Assembly: GCA_002280515.1 (NCBI GenBank) | Contig: NCEA01000003.1 | Coordinates: 177,248-241,247 of the forward strand | Length of the DNA stretch: 64,000 bases | Direction: 5' to 3' | Source: Rhodobacterales bacterium 32-67-9 | GTDB lineage: Bacteria > Pseudomonadota > Alphaproteobacteria > Rhodobacterales > Rhodobacteraceae | In this document: positions 41,828 to 54,279 of the stretch, piece by piece | Position numbering within the stretch: position 1 is the first letter of the stretch | How the letters are laid out: each line of letters begins with the position of its first letter | The notes under the pieces: model-generated | Seen by the model: the letters and a program-made list of their open reading frames with translations, nothing else | The model's database searches: none | What the model was told of the DNA's origin: nothing | Made by a program: the position numbers and the translations under genes

Positions 41828-43282
41828 ATGACCACCATCATCAAGAACGGCACCGTCGTGACCGCCGATCTGACCTACAAGGCGGATGTGCTGATCGACG
41901 GCGGGAAAATCGTCGAGATCGGCGAAAACCTGAAGGGCGACACTGTGCTCGACGCCACCGGCTGTTACGTCATGCCGGGCGGGATCGACCCGCACACGCA
42001 TCTGGAGATGCCCTTCATGGGCACCTATTCCACCGATGATTTTGAATCCGGCACGCGAGCAGCACTCGCCGGCGGCACGACGATGGTCGTCGATTTCGTG
42101 CTGCCGTCGCCGGGGCAGGGCCTCCTCGATGCCAAGCAGATGTGGCACAACAAGTCGGGCCGGGCGAATTGCGACTATTCCTACCACATGGCCGTGACCT
42201 GGTGGGGGCAGCAGGTCTTCGACGAGATGAAGACGGTGATCAAGACCGAGGGCATCACCACCTTCAAGCATTTCATGGCCTACAAGGGCGCCCTGATGGT
42301 CAATGACGACGAGATGTACGCCTCGTTCAAGCGGCTGGGGGAGCTTGGCGGGATTGCCCTTGTCCATGCCGAGAATGGCGACGTGGTGGCGGAACTTTCG
42401 GCGAAGCTTCTGGCCGAGGGCAATGTCGGGCCGGAGGCGCACGCCTATTCCCGCCCGCCGCAGGTCGAGGGCGAGGCGACGAACCGCGCCATCATGATCG
42501 CCGATATGGCGGGGGTGCCGCTTTATGTCGTGCATACCAGTTGCGAGGATGCACATGAGGCGATCCGCCGCGCGCGGATGCAGGGCAAGAGGGTCTGGGG
42601 CGAGCCCTTGATCCAGCACCTGACGCTCGATGAGAGCGAGTATTTCAACCAGGACTGGGACCATGCCGCGCGGCGGGTAATGTCGCCGCCCTTCCGCAAC
42701 AAGAAGCATCAGGATTCGCTTTGGGCGGGGCTCCAGTCCGGTTCGCTCTCGGTTGTTGCGACCGATCACTGCGCCTTCACCACCGAGCAGAAGCGCTTCG
42801 GCGTCGGTGATTTCACCAAGATCCCGAACGGGACGGGGGGGCTGGAGGACCGGATGCCGATGCTCTGGACGCATGGGGTGAACACCGGGCGGCTGACGCC
42901 CAACGAATTCGTCGCGGTCACGTCAACTAACATCGCCAAGATATTGAATTGCTATCCGAAAAAGGGCGCGGTTCTGGTCGGCGCGGATGCCGATATCGTG
43001 GTCTGGGATCCGGAGCGGACCAAGACCATCTCGGCCGGGTCGCAGCAATCGGCCATCGACTACAACGTCTTCGAAGGCCAGAAGGTCAAGGGCCTGCCGC
43101 GCTACACGCTGACCCGCGGGATGGTCGCGGTGAACGACGGCAAGGTCGAGACGCACGAGGGCCATGGCGAGTTCGTGGCCCGCAGGGCCGGAAACCCGGT
43201 CAATCGGGCGCTCTCGTCCTGGAAGGAGCTGACCTCGCCCCGGCCGGTGACGCGGACGGGCATTCCGGCGAGCGGGGTGTGA
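41828..43282 (+). CDS. hydA: Dihydropyrimidinase
   Basis: 484 aa, amidohydrolase superfamily. Hydrolyses dihydrouracil/dihydrothymine to N-carbamoyl-beta-amino acids, between PreTA and HyuC. Zn ligands: GIDPHTHLEMPF (HxH), the carboxylated lysine in TFKHFMAYKG, HAENGD and VVHTSCEDAHE histidines and the aspartate in VATDHCAF. ATG 41828. The stop overlaps the next start (TGATG). Confidence 0.93.
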   Translation: MTTIIKNGTVVTADLTYKADVLIDGGKIVEIGENLKGDTVLDATGCYVMPGGIDPHTHLEMPFMGTYSTDDFESGTRAALAGGTTMVVDFVLPSPGQGLLDAKQMWHNKSGRANCDYSYHMAVTWWGQQVFDEMKTVIKTEGITTFKHFMAYKGALMVNDDEMYASFKRLGELGGIALVHAENGDVVAELSAKLLAEGNVGPEAHAYSRPPQVEGEATNRAIMIADMAGVPLYVVHTSCEDAHEAIRRARMQGKRVWGEPLIQHLTLDESEYFNQDWDHAARRVMSPPFRNKKHQDSLWAGLQSGSLSVVATDHCAFTTEQKRFGVGDFTKIPNGTGGLEDRMPMLWTHGVNTGRLTPNEFVAVTSTNIAKILNCYPKKGAVLVGADADIVVWDPERTKTISAGSQQSAIDYNVFEGQKVKGLPRYTLTRGMVAVNDGKVETHEGHGEFVARRAGNPVNRALSSWKELTSPRPVTRTGIPASGV

Positions 43283-43770
43283 TGCAGGCATTTAGGAAGC
43301 GGTGGGGAATGGATGAGCAACTCGTCTGGTTGCTGTTTACTGCCGTTTTCTTCACTAATGTTGGCGTTGCAGTCTTGCTCGGCGTCAAGGCCATGTTCCA
43401 AAGCCCCGGAGAAATTGGAACGATCATGCTTACCGTTCCGTCGGTAGTGTTCTTCGGACTCCTGTCTGATCTTATTCTTGCACTGAAGATGCCCTACTTC
43501 TTCGTCGGGGCAGTGACCTTCTGGAGCGTATGCTTCCGTTTGCTCACGGCGAGCGGCGTGTCGAGACGTCGAGCGGCCCGGATTGCGGCAGCAGTGACCG
43601 GGCTTGGCTTCTTTATCGTGCTTTTCGTCTTAAGCTGGGACGAAGCGTGGAGGCAGGACCTTGGTAATTTCCTTCTTCTCGGGGGAGTTGCGGCCGTTGC
43701 CAGCGGCATGGCGGCGACACTGATCTATCGACGAGAACCGAAATCTGTAGCCGGGCTGGAGCGCGCATGA
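43282..43770 (+). CDS. Small integral membrane protein, atypical composition
   Basis: 162 aa with about four predicted membrane spans (LLFTAVFFTNVGVAVLLGV, VVFFGLLSDLILAL, a third near FFVGAVTFWSV and ITGLGFFIVLFVL-like). No family recognised. Start ATG overlaps the hydA stop, and its own TGA overlaps the ATG of the ABC ATPase, so it is fully embedded in the operon. Its base composition is visibly lower in GC (near 50-55% by eye) with many T-ending and A-ending codons, unlike both neighbours, suggesting a later acquisition. A role in the importer is possible but not shown. Confidence 0.7.
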   Translation: MQAFRKRWGMDEQLVWLLFTAVFFTNVGVAVLLGVKAMFQSPGEIGTIMLTVPSVVFFGLLSDLILALKMPYFFVGAVTFWSVCFRLLTASGVSRRRAARIAAAVTGLGFFIVLFVLSWDEAWRQDLGNFLLLGGVAAVASGMAATLIYRREPKSVAGLERA

Positions 43771-44567
43771 AGGACACCAACGCCACCACCGCGCCGGTGA
43801 TCGAGGCGAAGGGGCTGGGGCTGACCTTCGAGACGAATGACGGCCCGGTCCATGCTTTGAAGGACGTGACCCTGACCGTCGGCAAGGGCGAGTTCGTCAG
43901 CTTCATCGGGCCGTCGGGCTGCGGCAAGACCACGTTCCTGCGCGCCATCGCGGCGCTGGAGTATCCGACGGAAGGGACGCTGACGGTCAACGGGATGAGC
44001 CCGGACGCCGCGCGGCAGGCGCGGGCCTATGGCTATGTCTTCCAGGCGGCGGGGCTTTATCCGTGGCGGACGATTGCCGGGAACATCAAGCTTCCGCTTG
44101 AAATCATGGGATTTTCGAAGGCGGAGCAGGAAGAGCGGGTGGAGCGGGTGCTGGCGCTTGTCGACCTTGACGGATTCGGGCGGAAGTTCCCCTGGCAGTT
44201 GTCGGGCGGCATGCAGCAGCGCGCCTCGATCGCCCGGGCGCTGGCCTTCGACGCCGACATATTGCTGATGGACGAGCCTTTCGGCGCCTTGGACGAGATC
44301 GTGCGCGACCGGCTGAACGAGGAAGTGCTGAAGCTCTGGGCGCGGACAGAAAAGACCATCGGGTTCGTCACCCATTCGATCCCCGAGGCGGTCTATCTTT
44401 CGACCAGGATCGTGGTGATGAGCCCCCGCCCGGGGCGGATCACCGATGTGATCGAGAGCACGTTGCCGAGAGAACGGCCGCTCGATATCCGTGACAGCCC
44501 GGAGTTCATCGCCATCGCGCACCGGGTGCGGGAGGGCCTCAGGGCGGGGCATGGCGATGAGGTCTGA
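43767..44567 (+). CDS. ABC importer ATP-binding protein (SsuB/ThiZ type), pyrimidine island
   Basis: 266 aa. Walker A GPSGCGKTT, Q-loop VFQAAGLYPWRTI, signature LSGGMQQRAS, Walker B ILLMDEPFGALDE, switch HSIPEA. With two permeases and an NMT1/THI5-type binding protein it forms one importer. Its location between hydA and the pathway end suggests a pyrimidine or related nucleobase/hydantoin as cargo (inference). Confidence 0.87.
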   Translation: MKDTNATTAPVIEAKGLGLTFETNDGPVHALKDVTLTVGKGEFVSFIGPSGCGKTTFLRAIAALEYPTEGTLTVNGMSPDAARQARAYGYVFQAAGLYPWRTIAGNIKLPLEIMGFSKAEQEERVERVLALVDLDGFGRKFPWQLSGGMQQRASIARALAFDADILLMDEPFGALDEIVRDRLNEEVLKLWARTEKTIGFVTHSIPEAVYLSTRIVVMSPRPGRITDVIESTLPRERPLDIRDSPEFIAIAHRVREGLRAGHGDEV

Positions 44568-44584
44568 GCGCGCCCCGGTCGGCG

Positions 44585-44690
44585 GTTCCGGCGGGGATGC
44601 GCCGCGCGGGGGGCTGTCTGCCCCCCGGCCCCGGACCGGGTCCGGGGCGCCCCCCGAGGATATTTCCGGCAAGATGAAGGGCAGGGTGGC
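44585..44690 (+). repeat. Interspersed repeat copy 4 with GC-rich hairpins, ATPase-permease gap
   Basis: The 123-bp gap carries GGCGGGGATGC at 44590, a hairpin GGGGGG-CTGTCTG-CCCCCC near 44609, a palindrome CCCCGGAC-CG-GGTCCGGGG near 44629 and then the module GAGGATATTT, four bases, GCAAGATGAAGGG at 44656-44681. It looks like a copy of the 4191/10664 repeat opened by inserted hairpins. Confidence 0.65.
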
Positions 44691-45554
44691 ATGAAGTCCC
44701 TGCTGCCGATCCTGACCGTTCTCGCCGCGATCGTGGCGCTCTGGTATGCGGGGACAGTCTGGCTCAATGCGCAGTGGACCCATGACCAGGCGGCGCGCGC
44801 CGGTGTCGAGGTGACGTTTGCCGAGGTGGTGGCCGACGCGATGGCGCAGGAGCGCCCGGTGCTGCCGGCGCCGCACCAGGTGGCGAGGGGGCTTTGGGAC
44901 GGGGTGACGGGGCACAAGGTGACCTCGAAGCGGAGCCTCGTCTATCACGCGCAGGTGACGCTCTCGGCGACGCTGGTCGGGTTCGTCATCGGCACGCTCG
45001 CCGGGATCCTGCTTGCGGTCGGGATCGTCCACAACCGGGCGATGGACCTCAGCGTCATGCCCTGGGCCATCGCCAGCCAGACCATCCCGATCCTCGCCAT
45101 CGCGCCGATGGTGATCGTGGTGCTGGCCTCGGTCGGGGTGACGGGGCTTTTGCCCAAGGCGGTGATCTCGGCCTATCTCTCGTTCTTCCCGGTCGTCGTC
45201 GGGATGGTGAAGGGGCTGAGGGCGCCCGATCATATGCAGCTCGATCTTCTCAGGACCTATAACGCGGGCCGCTGGGACACGTTCTGGAAGCTGCGGCTGC
45301 CGGCTTCGATGCCCTATCTCTTCGCCTCGCTCAAGGTCTCGGTCGCGGCCTCGCTGGTGGGGGCGATCGTCGGCGAATTGCCGGCGGGGGCCTCGGCGGG
45401 GCTTGGTGCGCGGCTTCTGTCGGGCAGCTATTACGGGCAGACCATCCAGATCTGGGCGGCGCTTTTCGCCGCGGCGATCCTTGCGGCGGGGCTGGTGATG
45501 ATCATCGGCGTGATCGAGCGCGGCACCCTGCGCCGCATGGGGATGGTCCGATGA
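44691..45554 (+). CDS. ABC importer permease (SsuC/ThiX type)
   Basis: 287 aa with an N-terminal anchor helix and a periplasmic stretch of about 70 residues, then five membrane spans and an EAA-like loop (LDLLRTYNAGRWDTFWKLRLPASMPYLFASLKV). Overlaps the next permease by ATGA. One of two non-identical channel subunits. Confidence 0.85.
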   Translation: MKSLLPILTVLAAIVALWYAGTVWLNAQWTHDQAARAGVEVTFAEVVADAMAQERPVLPAPHQVARGLWDGVTGHKVTSKRSLVYHAQVTLSATLVGFVIGTLAGILLAVGIVHNRAMDLSVMPWAIASQTIPILAIAPMVIVVLASVGVTGLLPKAVISAYLSFFPVVVGMVKGLRAPDHMQLDLLRTYNAGRWDTFWKLRLPASMPYLFASLKVSVAASLVGAIVGELPAGASAGLGARLLSGSYYGQTIQIWAALFAAAILAAGLVMIIGVIERGTLRRMGMVR

Positions 45555-46402
45555 GCTGGCTTTGGGGGGCGATCCTCTTCTGGCTCGCGGCCTGGGCGTT
45601 CAACGTCTGGCTCGCCAATCGCGCGGTGGCGCGGCGCCAGGCGGTGCGGCTTTTCATTCCGGCGCTTTTCGGGGTGACGCTGCTGGTCCTCTGGGAGGGG
45701 ACGGTGCGCGGGTTGGGCGTCCCCGGCGTTATCCTGCCCGCACCCTCGGCGATCTGGGCGACGATCCTCGCGTCGCTGCCGATCCTTGCCGGCGATTTCG
45801 TGCAGACGATCCTGAAGGGCGCGCTCTCGGGCTATCTCATCGGTTGCGGGGCGGCGGTCGCGACCGCGATCGCCATCGACCGGTCGCCGTTCCTCAAGGC
45901 GGGGCTCCTGCCGGTCGGCAACTTCGTCGCGGCCCTGCCCATTGTCGGGATCGCGCCGATCCTCGTCATGTGGTTCGGCTTCGACTGGCAGTCGAAGGCG
46001 GCGGTCGTCGTGGTCATGGTGTTCTTCCCGGTCCTCGTGAACACCGTCGCGGGGCTTGGTGCAGCCGAGCGGATGCAGCGCGACCTGATGGCGACCTGGG
46101 GGGCCGGCTATTGGCAGACGCTTTTCAAGCTCAGGCTGCCGGCGGCGATGCCGTTCATCTTCAACGGGCTGAAGATCGCGACGACGCTGGCGCTGATTGG
46201 CGCCATCGTCGCGGAATTTTTCGGCTCTCCCATCCGGGGAATGGGATTTCGCATCTCGACCGCCGTGGGCCAGCTTGCGCTGGACATGGTCTGGGCTGAG
46301 ATTGCCGTGGCGGCGCTGGCCGGTTCGGCATTCTACGGGCTTGTGGCGCTGATCGAGAAGAGCGTCACCTTCTGGCATCCGTCGCAGCGCGCGCGGAGCT
46401 GA
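45551..46402 (+). CDS. ABC importer permease (SsuC/ThiX type)
   Basis: 283 aa, about six membrane spans, EAA-like loop (MQRDLMATWGAGYWQTLFKLRLPAAMPFIFNGLKI). Second channel subunit. Followed 15 bp later by the binding-protein gene, which is last in the operon. Confidence 0.85.
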   Translation: MSWLWGAILFWLAAWAFNVWLANRAVARRQAVRLFIPALFGVTLLVLWEGTVRGLGVPGVILPAPSAIWATILASLPILAGDFVQTILKGALSGYLIGCGAAVATAIAIDRSPFLKAGLLPVGNFVAALPIVGIAPILVMWFGFDWQSKAAVVVVMVFFPVLVNTVAGLGAAERMQRDLMATWGAGYWQTLFKLRLPAAMPFIFNGLKIATTLALIGAIVAEFFGSPIRGMGFRISTAVGQLALDMVWAEIAVAALAGSAFYGLVALIEKSVTFWHPSQRARS

Positions 46403-46417
46403 CAACAGGGGAGAATT

Positions 46418-47404
46418 ATGATGAAGAGACTACTGACTTCGGTTCTGGCCGCGGGGCTTTTCACCACCGCCGCTCAGGCCGCAGACGACGTGACCTTGCA
46501 GCTGAAATGGGTGACGCAGGCCCAGTTCGCCGGCTACTACGTCGCCAAGGACAAGGGTTTTTACGACGAGGAGGGGCTGAACGTCACCATCCTGCCGGGC
46601 GGCCCGGACATCGCGCCGACGCAGGTCGTGGCCGGTGGCGGCGCCGATGTCGTCATCGACTGGATGCCCTCCGCACTCGCCGCGCGGGAAAAGGGCCTGC
46701 CGCTCGTCAACATCGCGCAGCCCTTCAAGTCCTCGGGCATGATGCTGACCTGCCTCAAGGAATCCGGCGTGGCCAGCCCGGATGACTTCAAGGGCAAGAC
46801 GCTCGGCGTCTGGTTCTTCGGCAACGAATATCCGTTCCTGAGCTGGATGGCGACGCTCGGCATTCCGACGACCGGTGGCGCGGACGGGGTGGAGGTGCTG
46901 AAGCAGGGCTTCAACGTCGATCCCTTGCTGCAAAAGCAGGCCGCCTGCATCTCGACCATGACCTACAACGAATACTGGCAGGTGATCGACGCCGGCATCG
47001 CGGCCGACGATCTTGTCACCTTCAAATACGAGGACGAGGGTGTGGCGACGCTGGAGGACGGGCTTTACGTGCTCGAGGACAACCTGAAGGACGCGGCCTT
47101 CGAGGACAAGATGGTGCGCTTCGTCCGCGCCTCGATGAAGGGCTGGAAATGGGCCGAGGAAAACCCCGATGACGCGGCGATGATCGTGCTCGACAATGAC
47201 GAGACCGGGGCCCAGACCGAGACCCACCAGAAGCGGATGATGGGCGAGATCGCCAAGCTGACCGCAGGCTCGAACGGCGCGCTCGACGCGGCCGACTACG
47301 AGCGCACGGTGGCGACGCTTCTGGGCGGCGGCTCGGACCCGGTGATCACCAAGGCGCCGGAAGGGGCCTGGACCCACCAGATCACCGACAAGGCGCTCCA
47401 GTAG
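46418..47404 (+). CDS. ABC importer periplasmic binding protein, NMT1/THI5-like
   Basis: 328 aa with a signal peptide (LAAGLFTTAAQAA-DD). NMT1/THI5-type fold (QLKWVTQAQFAGYYVAKDKGFYDEEGLNVTILPGG), as used for pyrimidine-ring ligands such as hydroxymethylpyrimidine and for riboflavin precursors, taurine and others. In an operon with dihydropyrimidinase, a pyrimidine ligand is the best guess. GGGGAGAA precedes the start. A strong terminator follows. Confidence 0.87.
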   Translation: MMKRLLTSVLAAGLFTTAAQAADDVTLQLKWVTQAQFAGYYVAKDKGFYDEEGLNVTILPGGPDIAPTQVVAGGGADVVIDWMPSALAAREKGLPLVNIAQPFKSSGMMLTCLKESGVASPDDFKGKTLGVWFFGNEYPFLSWMATLGIPTTGGADGVEVLKQGFNVDPLLQKQAACISTMTYNEYWQVIDAGIAADDLVTFKYEDEGVATLEDGLYVLEDNLKDAAFEDKMVRFVRASMKGWKWAEENPDDAAMIVLDNDETGAQTETHQKRMMGEIAKLTAGSNGALDAADYERTVATLLGGGSDPVITKAPEGAWTHQITDKALQ

Positions 47405-48168: not shown

Positions 48169-49482
48169 ATGGCGCGATCGGCGCTGACAGGAACGCGGGT
48201 GCGCGAGAGGCGCCTCAGGATCGGCATGAAGCAGGCCGATCTGGCGCGCGCCGTGGCGATCTCTCCGGCCTATCTCAATCTCATCGAGCATAATCGTCGC
48301 CGGGTTGGCCCGGAGTTGCTGACGGCGCTCTCCGAGGCACTCGGGGTCGAGGAGACGACGCTGGCGGAGGGCGCGGAAAGCGCGCTCTTCGAGGGCCTGC
48401 GCGAGGCGGCGGCCGGGTCGGCATCGGGGACGCCGGAGGCCGCCGCCGAACTTGACCGGATCGAGGAATTCGTCGGCCGCTTTCCCGGCTGGGCGGGGCT
48501 TCTCGCAGACCGGCAGGCGCGGATCGGCACGCTCGAACGCACGGTCGAAGCACTGAGCGAACGCATGGCGCACGACCCGTTCCTCTCGGCCTCGCTGCAC
48601 GAGGTCGTCTCGGCGGTGACCTCGGTCCGGTCCACCGCCGCGATCCTCGCCGAGAGCGAGGATATCGCGCCGGACTGGCGCGAGAGGTTCCACCGCAATA
48701 TCTTTGCTGACAGCATCCGGCTTTCCGACGCGGCGGCGGCGCTCGTCGCCTATCTCGACGCGAGCCAGGAAAGCGAGACCGGGCTCTCCTCGCCGCAGGA
48801 AGAGGTCGAGGCCTGGCTGGCGCGGACGCATTATCACCTCGCGGGGCTCGAGCGTGCGCATCCGACGCCGGCCGAAAGCCTGGTGAGCGGGGTTGCCGAC
48901 CTCGCGAGCGGTGCCGCGCGGAAACTGGCGCTGGCCCATATCGCGCGCTACCGGGCCGACGCGCTGGCGCTGCCGCTGGAGCCGTTCCTGCGCGCGCTGG
49001 CCGAGGACGGACCGGACCCGGCCGCGCTGGCGCGGCGAACCGGGGTCGGGCTTGCCGCGGTCTTCCGCCGGCTTGCGACGCTGCCCGAGGGCGCCGGCCC
49101 GCCCGTGGGCCTCGTGATCTGCGATGCCTCCGGCACGCTCACCTTCCGCCGCCCGGCGCCGGGCTTCACGCTGCCGCGCCATGGTGCCGCCTGTCCACTC
49201 TGGCCGCTTTACGAGGCGCTGGCCCGCCCGACAGTGCCGATCCGGGCGCCGGTGGAGATGGCCGGACGAGTGCCGGTGCGGTTCCTGACCTATGCCTACA
49301 GCGAACCGCGCCACCCCGGCGGTTTCGACGGGCCGCAGGTGGTCGAGGCGCTGATGCTGATCCTGCCCGCCAGCGGGGCGAGGACCGGCGCCGAACGCCC
49401 GATCGGCTCGTCCTGCCGGATCTGCCCGCGCGGTGCCTGCGTCGCCCGGCGCGAACCCTCGATCCTCGCCGAGAGCGGCTGA
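48169..49482 (+). CDS. XRE-family regulator, ScfR-like, with embedded DHp-like segment
   Basis: 437 aa. Residues 8-65: XRE HTH (VRERRLRIGMKQADLARAVA; SPAYLNLIEHNRRRVG). Residues about 115-200: a coiled-coil and a segment FLSASLHEVVSAVTSVRS, then IFADSIRLSDAAAALVAYL, that aligns along its length with the DHp helix of the symporter kinase encoded at 50399 and keeps its His-Glu pair (H144). Residues about 215-437: ScfR/DUF2083-type domain ending in SCRICPRGACVARREPS with three cysteines. ScfR relatives control short-chain fatty acid metabolism. AAGGAG precedes ATG 48169. Adjacent to a lone receiver domain and a hybrid sensor. Confidence 0.8.
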   Translation: MARSALTGTRVRERRLRIGMKQADLARAVAISPAYLNLIEHNRRRVGPELLTALSEALGVEETTLAEGAESALFEGLREAAAGSASGTPEAAAELDRIEEFVGRFPGWAGLLADRQARIGTLERTVEALSERMAHDPFLSASLHEVVSAVTSVRSTAAILAESEDIAPDWRERFHRNIFADSIRLSDAAAALVAYLDASQESETGLSSPQEEVEAWLARTHYHLAGLERAHPTPAESLVSGVADLASGAARKLALAHIARYRADALALPLEPFLRALAEDGPDPAALARRTGVGLAAVFRRLATLPEGAGPPVGLVICDASGTLTFRRPAPGFTLPRHGAACPLWPLYEALARPTVPIRAPVEMAGRVPVRFLTYAYSEPRHPGGFDGPQVVEALMLILPASGARTGAERPIGSSCRICPRGACVARREPSILAESG

Positions 49483-49497
49483 GCGGGGATGCCTCCG

Positions 49498-49563
49498 GCG
49501 GGGATATTTGTTCCAAGTGGAAGCCGGGGCACCCTCGTTTCCACTTGGATCAAATATCCCCGC
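49498..49563. terminator. Long inverted repeat between the XRE gene and the receiver gene
   Basis: Arms of about 25 nt (49498-49522 and 49538-49563), built from GCGGGGATATTTG and CCAAGTGGAA, pair with a single mismatch around a 15-nt loop. The left arm continues the GATGCCTCCGGCGGGGATATTT repeat family. It can act as a bidirectional terminator or insulator and separates the XRE gene from the next transcription unit. Confidence 0.7.
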
Positions 49564-49681: not shown

Positions 49682-50050
49682 ATGACGAGACGTGTCCTCC
49701 TCATCGAGGATGAGCCGCATATCGCAGAGGCGATCCGCTATCTCCTTGTCCGCGACGGCTGGGCGGTGGCGAGCCACGGCGAGGGGCGCAGCGCGCTTGA
49801 GGTGATCCGCCGCGAGGCGCCGGACGTCGTCGTGCTCGACGTGATCCTGCCGGGACGGTCCGGCTACGAGATTCTCGAGGAACTGCGCGCCGATCCCGAC
49901 CTCACCAGCCTGCCGGTCCTGGTCCTGTCGGCGCGCGGCCAGAGTTCTGACCGGGCGCTTGCGGAAGGTGCCGGCGCATCGCGCTTTATCGCCAAGCCCT
50001 TCGCCAATGCCGAGATCCTCGCGGCGCTCCGGCAGATGGCGGGCGCATGA
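49682..50050 (+). CDS. Single-domain response regulator (CheY-like receiver)
   Basis: 122 aa. Receiver fold with acidic pair in LLIEDEPH (E9, D10, E11), phospho-acceptor D53 in VVVLDVILPG, Ser at the switch position in VLVLSARG and K105 in FIAKPF. No output domain. ATG 49682. It is followed by a small membrane protein and the symporter-kinase gene, its probable cognate kinase. Confidence 0.9.
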   Translation: MTRRVLLIEDEPHIAEAIRYLLVRDGWAVASHGEGRSALEVIRREAPDVVVLDVILPGRSGYEILEELRADPDLTSLPVLVLSARGQSSDRALAEGAGASRFIAKPFANAEILAALRQMAGA

Positions 50051-50105: not shown

Positions 50106-50399
50106 ATGAAGGCGCGGCAGCGGCCGAAGTTCCTCGCGCGTCGATCCTATCGACACAGGCGCATGATCGATGCCGCCCGGCTTCTGCCGGTGCTCGGTCT
50201 CTTCCTCGTCCTGCTGCCGATTCTCTGGCGTCCCGCCGCGACACCCGAGCCGGATACCGCGCGTGGCGGGCTCTATCTTTTCGCGGTCTGGCTTCTGCTG
50301 ATCGCCGCCGCCTTCGTTCTCGCCCGCCGCCTGTCCGAGGCCGGGCGGAACGGCGAAGAGGGCGCAGACGGTCCCGCGCCAGACGGGGAGCCGCGCTGA
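50106..50399 (+). CDS. Small two-helix membrane protein
   Basis: 97 aa. A basic N-terminus (MKARQRPKFLARRSYRHRR) and two membrane spans (LLPVLGLFLVLLPILW; LYLFAVWLLLIAAAFVLA), ending in an acidic tail. Its TGA overlaps the ATG of the following symporter-kinase. Symporters of the SSS family often pair with a small membrane protein, so it may be an accessory subunit (inference). Not matched to a named family. Confidence 0.72.
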   Translation: MKARQRPKFLARRSYRHRRMIDAARLLPVLGLFLVLLPILWRPAATPEPDTARGGLYLFAVWLLLIAAAFVLARRLSEAGRNGEEGADGPAPDGEPR

Positions 50400-53101
50400 T
50401 GGTGCCGTTCAACATCCTTGTTGCGGTCTGCCTGATCTATGTCTGCCTTCTATTCCTCGTCGCCTTCGCGGCGGAGCGGCGGGCCGAACGCGGGCGCGCC
50501 GGATGGCTGCGTTCGCCGATCATCTACACGCTGTCGCTGTCGATCTACTGCACCGCCTGGACCTTCTACGGTGCGGTCGGATATGCGGCGCGCTCGGGGC
50601 TCGAGTTCGTCACCATCTATCTCGGGCCAACGCTGGTTCTGGTCGGCTGGTGGCTCTTGCTGCGAAAGCTGGTCCGCATCGGTCAGGCGCAGCGCGTGAC
50701 CTCGATCGCCGACCTCATCTCCTCGCGTTACGGCAAGTCGAACCTGCTGGGCGTCATCGTGACGGTGATCGCGGTCGTCGGCGCGACGCCCTACATCGCG
50801 CTGCAACTCCAGTCGGTGACGCTGTCCTTCGGCGTCTTCGCCAGCGGCACGCCGGAGGGCTGGGCCTTGCCGGACCAGAGTGCCACGGCGCTCTGGGTCG
50901 CCGGGGGCCTCACGCTTTTCACCATCCTCTTCGGCACCCGCAACCTCGATGCGAACGAACGGCATCACGGCGTGGTCATGGCGATCGCGCTCGAGGCCGT
51001 GGTGAAGCTGGTGGCCCTTCTGGCCGTCGGGGTCTTCGTCGTCTGGGGCGTGGCCGACGGCGTCGGCGACGTGATGGCGCGGATCGACGCCTCGTCCATC
51101 GCCGACTGGCCGCTGGTGCCCGGTCGCTGGATCGGGCTGACCTTCGTCTCGTCGGCGGCGGTCCTGACGCTGCCGCGGATGTTCCAGGTGATGGTCGTCG
51201 AGAATTCGGACGAACGGCATCTCGCCACTGCCTCCTGGGCCTTCCCGCTCTACCTGATGCTGATGAGCCTCTTCGTGCTGCCGATCGCGGTCGTCGGCCT
51301 GTCGGTTCTGCCGGAGGGCGCCAATCCGGACCTCTTCGTTCTCACGCTGCCGCTGGCCGAGGGGCAGGGCAAGCTTGCCATGCTCGCCTTCCTCGGCGGC
51401 TTTTCCTCGGCCACCTCGATGGTCATCGTCGCGGCGATCGCGCTGGCGACGATGGTGTCGAACCACATCGTCACGCCGCTCTGGCTGAGCCTGCGGGCCG
51501 GCGGCGCGCGGGCGCCGGGCGACGTCCGGGGGCTTGTCCTCATGTCGCGGCGGGTGTCGATCGGGGCGATCCTGGCGCTGGGCTACAGCTACTATCACCT
51601 GTCGGGCGGTTCGGCGGCGCTGGCGGCGATCGGGCTGATCTCCTTCGTCGGCGTGGCGCAGATCCTGCCGGCGATGATCGGCGGCATCTTCTGGCGCGGG
51701 GCGACGGCGGTCGGCGCGGCGATGGGCCTCGTGACCGGGTTCCTCGTCTGGCTCTACGCGCTTTACCTTCCCTCGTTCGGCGCCGGCGGTCTCCTCTCCG
51801 AGGCGATTTTGCGCGACGGGCCGGCAGGGATCGGCTGGCTCAGGCCGCAGGCGCTCTTCGGGATCGACAGCCTCGATCCGCTGCTGCATGCGCTCTTCTG
51901 GTCGATTTCGCTGAACACCGGGGTATTCGTCGCCGGCTCGCTCCTGTCCTTCCCGAGCCCGGTCGAGCGGATGCAGGGCCTCGCCTTCGTCAATGCCTTC
52001 GAGCACGACCCCGGCGCGCGCGGCTGGAGCCGGGGTGGCGCCGAGGCCGAGGACCTGCTGACCATGAGCCAGGGCATTCTCGGCGCCGAGGAGGCGCAGC
52101 GCTTCTTCCAGGCCGAGGCGGCGGCGCAGGGTACGGCCGGCTACCTGCCGGAAACCACGCCCGAATTCATCGAGCGGCTGGAACGGCGGCTGGCCGGCGC
52201 GGTCGGCACCGCGACGGCGCATGCGATGATCGCCCAGTTCGCGGTCGGGGCCGCCGTCTCGGCGCAGGACCTGATGGCGGTTGCCTCGGAGGCGCAGCAG
52301 ATCCTCGAATACTCGACCCAGCTCGAGGCGAAGTCTGAGGAACTGGCCCGCACCGCGCGGCAGTTGCAGGAGGCCAACGAGAAGCTGAAGGATCTCTCGG
52401 TGCAGAAGGACACGTTCCTCAGCCAGATCAGCCACGAGCTGCGCACCCCGATGACCTCGATCCGGGCCTTCTCGGAAATCCTGATGGACCCCGACCTGCC
52501 CGGTGCGCTCCAGCAGAAATACGCCGAAGTCATTCATGAGGAGACGATCCGCCTGACCCGGCTGCTCGACGATCTGCTCGATCTTTCGGTGCTCGAGAAC
52601 CGCAAGGTGCAGCTCAGCGTCAAGGTCGCGAACCTGCACGACCTTCTCAACAAGGCGGTGCAGGCGGCGTCGAACACGCGGCCGGAACGCAGCTTTTCCA
52701 TCCGCCGCGAGTTTTCGGCCGAGCATATGCCGGTGATCACCGACACCGACCGGCTGGTGCAGGTCTTCATCAACCTCGTCTCGAACGCGCGCAAATACTG
52801 CGATGCCGAGCGGCCGGAACTGACTATCGCGGCGCGGCGCCGGGGCGGCCGGATCATCGTCGACTTCATCGACAACGGGTCGGGGATTCCGAAGGCGTCG
52901 CAGCGGCTGATCTTTGAGAAGTTCTCGCGCCTGACCGACACGGCGCGGGCTGGGGGGGCCGGGCTCGGCCTCGCCATCTGCCGCGAGATCATGGCCAATC
53001 TCGGCGGCACGATCGCCTATCTTCCGGGGCAGGGAGGGGCTGCGTTCCGCGTCTCGGTGCCGGTGCGGCCCGAGGTCGCGGCCGAGGGCGAGGCCGCCTG
53101 A
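50399..53101 (+). CDS. Na+/solute symporter-histidine kinase fusion (CrbS-like)
   Basis: 900 aa. Residues 1 to about 560: SSS (solute:sodium symporter) domain with about 13 membrane helices (YTLSLSIYCTAWTFYGAVGY start; MVSNHIVTPLWLSLRA). A coiled coil about 640-675, then the DHp box FLSQISHELRTPMTS (phospho-acceptor H679), N-box VSNARKY (about 795), DNGSGIP (about 824) and GAGLGLAI (about 855) of the ATPase domain. This architecture is that of CrbS, which senses flux of acetate-like solutes and drives acs expression via CrbR. Here the receiver gene precedes it but has no DNA-binding domain. All key kinase residues are intact. Confidence 0.88.
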   Translation: MVPFNILVAVCLIYVCLLFLVAFAAERRAERGRAGWLRSPIIYTLSLSIYCTAWTFYGAVGYAARSGLEFVTIYLGPTLVLVGWWLLLRKLVRIGQAQRVTSIADLISSRYGKSNLLGVIVTVIAVVGATPYIALQLQSVTLSFGVFASGTPEGWALPDQSATALWVAGGLTLFTILFGTRNLDANERHHGVVMAIALEAVVKLVALLAVGVFVVWGVADGVGDVMARIDASSIADWPLVPGRWIGLTFVSSAAVLTLPRMFQVMVVENSDERHLATASWAFPLYLMLMSLFVLPIAVVGLSVLPEGANPDLFVLTLPLAEGQGKLAMLAFLGGFSSATSMVIVAAIALATMVSNHIVTPLWLSLRAGGARAPGDVRGLVLMSRRVSIGAILALGYSYYHLSGGSAALAAIGLISFVGVAQILPAMIGGIFWRGATAVGAAMGLVTGFLVWLYALYLPSFGAGGLLSEAILRDGPAGIGWLRPQALFGIDSLDPLLHALFWSISLNTGVFVAGSLLSFPSPVERMQGLAFVNAFEHDPGARGWSRGGAEAEDLLTMSQGILGAEEAQRFFQAEAAAQGTAGYLPETTPEFIERLERRLAGAVGTATAHAMIAQFAVGAAVSAQDLMAVASEAQQILEYSTQLEAKSEELARTARQLQEANEKLKDLSVQKDTFLSQISHELRTPMTSIRAFSEILMDPDLPGALQQKYAEVIHEETIRLTRLLDDLLDLSVLENRKVQLSVKVANLHDLLNKAVQAASNTRPERSFSIRREFSAEHMPVITDTDRLVQVFINLVSNARKYCDAERPELTIAARRRGGRIIVDFIDNGSGIPKASQRLIFEKFSRLTDTARAGGAGLGLAICREIMANLGGTIAYLPGQGGAAFRVSVPVRPEVAAEGEAA

Positions 53102-53190: not shown

Positions 53191-54279
53191 ATGACGGACA
53201 CCGCGCCGCAGACAGTGCTGAAACGCAAGGCGGAAGCCGGACGCGCCCTGTCAGGGGATGCGGCGCGCGCACCTGCGCGCCAGTTCGGGCAGGCGCTCGC
53301 CAAAGCGGCGCAGGACATGCTGAAGCTGCCGCTGACGGTCATCGAGGCGGTCGACCTGCGCGCCTCGCTCGCCGAATTGCCGGAACGGCTGAGCGAGCGG
53401 TCGCTCCTGGCGGTGATGGAGGGGCCGGGCGAGGCGCTCGGCCTCGTGGCACTGTCGCCCGAAACGCTGGCGAGCCTGATCGAGGTCCAGACGACCGGCC
53501 GGATCGGCACGGCGGAGGTGACGGCACGGCGTCCGACGCGCACCGACGCGGCGATGTCGGTGCGGTTCGTCGACCGGGTGATGGCGGAGCTGGAGCTGTC
53601 GCTGGCCGCGGATCCCGCGATCACCTGGGCCGGCGGCTTCCGCTATGCCTCGTTCCTCGACGATCCGCGGCCACTGGGGCTCCTGCTTGAGGATACCGCC
53701 TACCGGGTGATGCGCGTCACGCTCGGATTCGGTGTCGACGGCTTGCGGCGCGGCACGATCCTGATGGCGGTGCCGGCAGAGGGGCGGGGGCGGTCGCCGG
53801 CCCGCTCCGATGGCGCGGTAGGCGCCGATCCCGGTGCGGCGGCGACCACGATTGAATGGAGCGAGCGGATCGAGGCGGCGGTCTACGGCGCGGAGGCGCA
53901 GATCGAGGCGGTTCTCGACCGTGTCAGCCTGCCGCTTTCGGCGCTGCTTGCTCTGAAACCTGGCGCGGTGGTACCGCTCTCGAACTCAGCGCTGACCCGG
54001 GTCCGGGTTGAGGGGCGGGGCCATCGCTTCCTCGCCTGGGGGCGGCTTGGCCAGTGCCAGGGCCACCTCGCGGTGCGGGTGAACCTGACCCCGCCGGAGG
54101 ACGGCGAGGCGCGCGAGGCGTTCGAGCCGGCGGCGGAAACCCTGGCCAGGGCACCGGCAGCCGAACCGTTGCCGGCGCTTGTTCCGGAACCGGTGACGGC
54201 TGCGGCAGGGCAGGGGCCGGAGAACGTGGCGGATGGCGGTGCCGCGCCACAAGGACCGGTCCGGGCACTGACCGGGTGA
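53191..54279 (+). CDS. fliM: Flagellar motor switch protein FliM
   Basis: 362 aa. Central CheC-like FliM middle domain (SLLAVMEGPGEALGLVALSPETLASLIEVQTTGRIG) and a C-terminal SpoA/FliN-like domain (LPLSALLALKPGAVVPL; RVRVEGRGHRFLAWGRLGQ), followed by a Pro/Ala-rich tail of about 60 residues. ATG 53191 with GGAGG just upstream. No other flagellar gene is nearby. Confidence 0.8.
   Translation: MTDTAPQTVLKRKAEAGRALSGDAARAPARQFGQALAKAAQDMLKLPLTVIEAVDLRASLAELPERLSERSLLAVMEGPGEALGLVALSPETLASLIEVQTTGRIGTAEVTARRPTRTDAAMSVRFVDRVMAELELSLAADPAITWAGGFRYASFLDDPRPLGLLLEDTAYRVMRVTLGFGVDGLRRGTILMAVPAEGRGRSPARSDGAVGADPGAAATTIEWSERIEAAVYGAEAQIEAVLDRVSLPLSALLALKPGAVVPLSNSALTRVRVEGRGHRFLAWGRLGQCQGHLAVRVNLTPPEDGEAREAFEPAAETLARAPAAEPLPALVPEPVTAAAGQGPENVADGGAAPQGPVRALTG

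Follow-up and report, generated by a model that had tools for sequence, protein, structure and literature searches.

Regulators of the ScfR/RamB-PccR-PrpR type combine an XRE HTH, an IrrE-like region, a PF09856 domain, and a [4Fe4S] site, and a C-x2-C-x4-C ligand motif for the latter has been named for the ScfR protein PrpR (PMC6765138). The SLC5/STAC histidine kinases (CbrA, CrbS, and RpuS) consist of a symporter-like half fused to HisKA-HATPase, an arrangement shared by the kinase of the cassette described here. However, the partners of CrbS and RpuS are LuxR-type response regulators (PMC9100948), whereas the cassette receiver has no output domain and is encoded beside an XRE regulator bearing a DHp-type segment. 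A DHp domain that reads a single-domain receiver, as we propose for this regulator, is already described for DivL and DivK, except that DivL keeps its CA domain and has Tyr at the acceptor site (PMC4211667), while the regulator lacks a CA domain and has His at the acceptor position. In another study, phosphoryl groups moved from MrrA, a single-domain receiver, onto PhyK and LovK, neither of which had autokinase activity there (PMC5964349). Such transfer from a receiver to the His of a non-autokinase DHp resembles the one we propose, and the same is true of ChpT, whose DHp His accepts from a receiver and has no autokinase role. Spo0B likewise takes its phosphoryl group from a receiver, on the His of a DHp without an autokinase role. 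PhyK/LovK, ChpT, and Spo0B all hand the phosphoryl group to another receiver, whereas the acceptor in our case would itself be a transcription factor. DivL is not known to be a DNA-binding regulator.

The cassette is located within a window of 64,000 nucleotides (the whole stretch of DNA that was analysed) from Rhodobacterales bacterium 32-67-9. Its features are as follows:
48169..49482, plus strand: XRE/ScfR-family regulator with a DHp-like insert, an ORF of 437 aa
48199..48357, plus strand: HTH_3 DNA-binding domain, residues 11-63 (Pfam)
48568..48789, plus strand: inserted DHp-like segment, approximately residues 134-207, with predicted helices at 137-162 and 168-205 (insertion and homology evidence)
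48598..48600, plus strand: His144 codon CAC, aligned with the phospho-acceptor His of the kinase
49093..49464, plus strand: ScfR C-terminal domain, residues 309-432, with C342 and C416-x2-C419-x4-C424 of the predicted [4Fe4S] site (Pfam, conservation, PrpR alignment)
49682..50050, plus strand: lone receiver, 122 aa from its ATG (Pfam Response_reg)
49838-49840, plus strand: phospho-acceptor Asp codon of the receiver (alignment)
50399..53101, plus strand: SLC5-type symporter-histidine kinase, 900 aa from the chosen ATG, with the open frame extending from 50090 (HisKA, HATPase_c, 10ed_A)
52403..52600, plus strand: HisKA/DHp domain of the kinase, His codon 52433-52435; the regulator segment profile matches here and just upstream

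Judged from its sequence, the regulator is a transcription factor of the ScfR family in which a DHp-type helical segment precedes the SPxEEV motif, at a site where other ScfR proteins have a short loop. Pfam at E≤1 matched HTH_3 at the N terminus (residues 11-63, E 4.3e-10), ScfRs (residues 309-432, 53.1 bits versus a cut-off of 24), and seven weaker HTH-type models. Like its described relatives, the protein has the Cys plus C-x2-C-x4-C motif, and C342, C416, C419, and C424, each kept in 61-62 of 63 aligned sequences, are predicted to be the [4Fe4S] ligands. It differs from them in the insert of ~60-70 aa and, for the window protein, in having no Pfam match to the IrrE-like Peptidase_M78, a domain that was matched in 36 of 38 members from outside the family (the distant set, comprising 38 of the 39 regulators found there; the one from genome G261 was left out). 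Neither HATPase_c nor HisKA was found in the window regulator at E≤1, in agreement with the original prediction that it has no ATPase domain, and the absence of HATPase_c indicates that it is not a histidine kinase. An identity as RamB (NF038139) was rejected as well, since the score was 114.9 bits versus a curated cut-off of 700.

The insert had been predicted to match the DHp helices of the kinase in the same cluster. D136, F138-L139, H144-E145, T151-S152-V153-R154, I159-L160, and R184-L185 are all present in the ORF translation where they had been placed, and the first and the last four of these are in register with D, SHELRTP, TSIR, IL, and RL of the kinase. From the window's own sequence, the case for a DHp segment is modest: the CreC model gave E 0.005 at residues 122-193, far under its cut-off, and blastp against the neighbouring kinase gave 30 bits (E 3e-4 for a single comparison) with H144 on the kinase His. 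Therefore, we gathered 149 orthologues, which are 149 of the 150 rows listed from 198 genomes of the window's family (a contig-edge row in G089 was left out, and one genome contributed two rows). A profile of residues 92-214 from these 149 sequences was used to search the whole genome at E≤10 and matched only the regulator itself and the neighbouring kinase, the latter with E 9.4e-7 at C49:229548-229826 (window 52301-52579), which spans the linker and DHp. None of the other 22 HisKA places detected by the Pfam model was matched in this search. No other Pfam family matched as many of the family segments as HisKA, yet its matches at E≤1 numbered just 30 among the 149 (best 1.4e-4) and did not include the segment of the window regulator. 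In the distant orthologues, HisKA was matched in 15 of 38 at E≤0.01, and in L308 it reached 38.7 bits versus a cut-off of 26.9, positioned between HTH_3 and the IrrE-like Peptidase_M78. A wider profile of 63 sequences aligned to 14 unrelated kinases of the window's genome with a probability of 95.5, E 1.6e-8, a score of 45.6, and His on His, whereas the best of 100 column shuffles scored 19.0 (0/100 as good) and six other segments reached at most 11.8. The family-only profile was not significant against the same 14 kinases (score 14.3, with 6/100 column shuffles as good and one control segment at 12.6), and the segment profile yielded 10 weak matches among PDB sequences at E≤10 (best E 0.045), none of which was a histidine kinase. 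That the insert is a relative of the DHp hairpin is well supported, both as to domain and origin, and the original prediction is borne out more strongly across relatives than from the window's own sequence.

An AlphaFold model of the full regulator (51-row alignment; pLDDT 87.9, pTM 0.67) has helices at 106-135, 137-162, and 168-205, and a model of the segment alone agrees with the full-length helices. This corresponds to two long helices with a short loop between them, following another long helix, and does not contradict the proposed DHp-like fold. When the segment was submitted to Foldseek, 12 of the first 13 rows were histidine-kinase structures (of LvrB, VC2136, HK853, and DivL) and one was a FAT domain, with all E-values above 0.001 and unrelated helical proteins in later rows. 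The full model matched PrpR, IrrE, and HTH proteins, with no kinase among the best 50 rows.

The putative acceptor His is highly conserved, as the original prediction would have it. In the family set it is His in 148 of 149 rows and Tyr in one, while D136 is invariant. H+1 is Glu in 113 and Asp in 24 of these rows, and H+4 is Ser in 128 and Thr in 15 (Ser/Thr in 143/149). Four positions (D-8, R+10, I+15, and L+16) are common to the insert and the kinase in 88-100% of 109 family pairs. The sole Tyr belongs to L016 (SLYDVVSSVTSIRS), which has receiver and kinase matches in its fetched flank. Among the distant orthologues, 32 of 38 keep the His, with Ser/Thr at H+4 in 34 and Ser/Thr/Asn in 37; the acidic residue at H+1 is mostly gone (R 13, Q 10, A 5, E 3, S 3; n=38). 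As nearly all of the regulator inserts have also lost the HELRTP Pro and the H+3 Arg, the insert does not have a standard HisKA acceptor site. The H-boxes of L308 to L311 are near canonical and resemble the ones in the kinases of these loci. The His is absent from six distant members (L306 and L316; L312, L313, and L315; L314). It is missing in 5 of 8 distant loci without a kinase in the fetched stretch versus 1 of 30 with a kinase (Fisher p 6e-4), a count that reflects only ~3 independent losses as estimated from kinship labels and includes some His-less genomes with a kinase elsewhere. The related distant regulators L312, L313, and L315 have Phe at the acceptor position, and two of these three genomes have no kinase match at E≤1e-6.

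To locate the insertion, the genome's other ScfR protein was represented by a profile of 30 of its orthologues, which was aligned to the 38 distant regulators by split-domain alignment, since neither MAFFT with the paralogue included nor a loose hhalign kept the insert in one piece. The paralogue profile splits near its position 135 in 27 of the 38, with a net insertion of 57-68 aa; the remaining 11 have no clean split, and L289 and L291 align as one stretch. Against PrpR, the regulator profile matches as far as residue 90 of the deposited chain and resumes at residue 96, which leaves 68 regulator positions opposite 5; the two flanking pieces of this alignment are weak alone (14.6 and -0.3 bits) and the C-terminal piece is strong (88.9 bits). 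A tree was built from 113 DHp rows, consisting of 63 regulators, 36 of 141 cassette kinases, and 14 other kinases. It places the inserts in one group (100/100) and unites this group with the cassette kinases to the exclusion of the 14 others (98/90), values from a bootstrap that had not settled, and its resolution is weak because the alignment has only 77 columns. One kinase (L311) is placed beside the inserts. When 48 inserts were paired with the kinase of their own locus, 45 of them scored better with it than with the best of the 14 unrelated kinases. The simplest reading is a single capture event within the Alphaproteobacteria, in which the DHp was probably taken from the partner kinase into the regulator.

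A lone receiver and a complete symporter-kinase do adjoin the regulator, as had been noted from the sequence and is apparent from Pfam and the ORFs. The receiver's acceptor Asp and conserved Lys are present in 146 of 146 best receiver matches. The N-terminal half of the kinase (residues 8-461) matches the PDB chain 10ed_A, described as 'histidine kinase', with E 3e-66, and this chain is probably the structure of CbrA, for which a structure preprint exists; the C-terminal half is HisKA-HATPase_c by Pfam, and no symporter model was matched at E≤1. When the flanks of 119 family loci (~5 kb) were surveyed for co-occurrence, 101 had the order regulator, receiver, kinase on one strand, 9 had all three genes otherwise placed (as defined by distance limits), 2 lacked the kinase, and 7 lacked both, with four of these last nine loci having <1.4 kb downstream before the contig end. 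The order was kept in 23 of the 38 distant loci, where 6 others had the genes otherwise placed, 1 lacked the receiver, 2 the kinase, and 6 both. Covariation was also examined by mutual information over 138 triples: interface pairs among the top 25 numbered 0 for the receiver versus the kinase DHp (3.6 expected) and 1 for the receiver versus the insert (3.4 expected). The former comparison was the positive control and did not recover the interface, so that the count for the insert carries no weight in either direction.

How might such a cassette operate? We suggest that, in an alphaproteobacterial ancestor, a ScfR-family regulator took over the DHp hairpin from the symporter-kinase of its own gene cluster. 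The kinase would sense, and perhaps transport, a solute, autophosphorylate, and phosphorylate the lone receiver. As a relative of the domain on which the receiver docks is present in the regulator, we propose that the receiver binds the regulator too and that phosphoryl exchange with His144 follows (H to D to H). This exchange would change regulator assembly or DNA binding, and could thereby affect transcription, while the ScfR part would add an acyl-CoA/[4Fe4S] input. The sequences suggest that the receiver acts as a small messenger protein that talks to both the kinase and the regulator. Since this receiver has no output domain and the neighbouring transcription factor has both a relative of its docking domain and a conserved His, we judge docking of the receiver on the captured DHp with phosphoryl exchange on His144 to be the best explanation, one that we hold to be somewhat better than an even prospect. 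More tentatively, we entertain the fuller scheme of a phosphorelay that ends on the His of a DNA-binding protein (symporter-kinase His to receiver Asp to His144), in which the transcription factor copied the kinase DHp, one receiver recognises both, and acyl-CoA/Fe-S sensing resides in the same polypeptide.

Other readings of the same features were weighed against docking with exchange. The most serious of them, though in our estimation an unlikely one, has the phosphorylated receiver bind the captured DHp and change the regulator allosterically with no phosphoryl transfer. DivL, with its Tyr in place of His, binds DivK~P in just this manner (PMC4211667), and the frequent loss of the H+1 acid, the six distant members that retain the segment without the His, and the four positions common to insert and kinase would all be compatible with it; the retention of His in 148/149 family and 32/38 distant sequences is what it leaves unexplained, as docking alone does not need this conservation. 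DHp domains are also dimerisation domains, and the position H+4 is tied to phosphatase activity in HisKA. Both facts lead to further alternatives. The hairpin could be a mere dimerisation or spacing element, with the receiver acting elsewhere, and the ScfR protein PrpR does act as a tetramer (PMC6765138); PrpR, however, assembles without such an insert, and neither the conserved His and kinase-shared positions nor the retention of the cassette would be expected, so that we consider this improbable. Slightly less probable still, the regulator DHp might serve as a phosphatase or phosphate sink that drains the receiver, with output through another partner. LovK drains phosphate from MrrA (PMC5964349), and Ser/Thr (or, in the distant set, Ser/Thr/Asn) is nearly constant at H+4, but a sink does not explain why the domain is placed inside a DNA-binding protein.

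Finally, the likeness could be a chance similarity of a coiled-coil hairpin to DHp helices. The missing HisKA match in the window sequence, the insignificant family-only profile, the Foldseek E-values, and the lack of kinases among the PDB matches would each permit this. The column shuffles, the other segments of the same protein, and the whole-genome search with its single specific kinase match rule it out, as does L308 with HisKA over the cut-off, and we give it practically no credence. The cassette is of broader interest, as two-component outputs normally proceed via the receiver's own effector domain, whereas here a separate metabolic regulator seems to have gained the receiver-docking domain of the partner kinase. 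Capture of a DHp would be an evolutionarily simple way to connect a transcription factor to a pathway already in place, and the cassette lets one ask whether a single-domain receiver phosphorylates a transcription factor or docks only.

The regulator is present in at least 148 of the 198 searched genomes of the window's family. In a class sample of 385 genomes, 53 had a segment-profile match at E≤1e-6; when sorted by family labels and open-frame lengths, these comprised 5 from the window's family, 39 others with a regulator-sized frame, and 9 with a kinase-sized match only. A second match in a kinase-sized frame (894-1011 aa) was found in 34 of the 39 regulator-bearing genomes outside the family. 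In a phylum sample of 398 genomes, the search at E≤1e-7 gave 15 matches beyond the class, each in a frame of 910-935 aa, as judged by frame length alone. The 80 named loci kept from 553 confirmed ones carry the labels Rhodobacteraceae, genera of the Rhodobacteraceae group, or broader bins (Alphaproteobacteria, Proteobacteria). In a record of Paracoccus ferrooxidans, the genes of the same cassette are labelled XRE regulator, response regulator, small hypothetical protein, and sodium:solute symporter. Paracoccus denitrificans Pden_1785, reported as a member of a ScfR similarity network whose own gene clusters with two-component genes, in a paper focused on three other members (PMC10370305), is perhaps an orthologue of the window regulator. 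Among the titles listed from the openly licensed literature, we found no DHp-bearing ScfR/XRE regulator, and the Paracoccus ferrooxidans record names the protein only 'XRE family transcriptional regulator'.

Upstream of the cassette, an ORF cluster with divergent Liv/Urt-type ABC transporter genes was found in 103 of 157 loci (72/119 family and 31/38 distant), a cluster that was formed by single linkage and may mix ABC transporters, with NCBIfam names for four genes or neighbours that were all under cut-off. This transporter is a candidate target of the regulator. The window's own upstream transporter differs from the one found there in many relatives: positions 41828-47404 hold a hydantoinase/dihydropyrimidinase-like gene and, after it, the genes for the ATPase, two permeases, and SsuA-like binding protein of an ABC transporter, names that, apart from the SsuA-like match, come from reading the sequence. 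Between the regulator stop and the receiver gene, there is also an inverted repeat (49498-49563) with 32-nt arms that are 88% complementary and 2 nt apart. Its half-site pattern occurs at four places in the genome, two here and two elsewhere, versus none for the reversed pattern, and the repeat may be a terminator or resemble REP elements. The kinase gene is closely followed, at 53191-54279, by an ORF for a FliM/SctQ-like protein, both matches being under cut-off. Family loci with a same-strand ORF cluster at this place number 72 of 119, and the Paracoccus annotation for it is FliM/FliN family.
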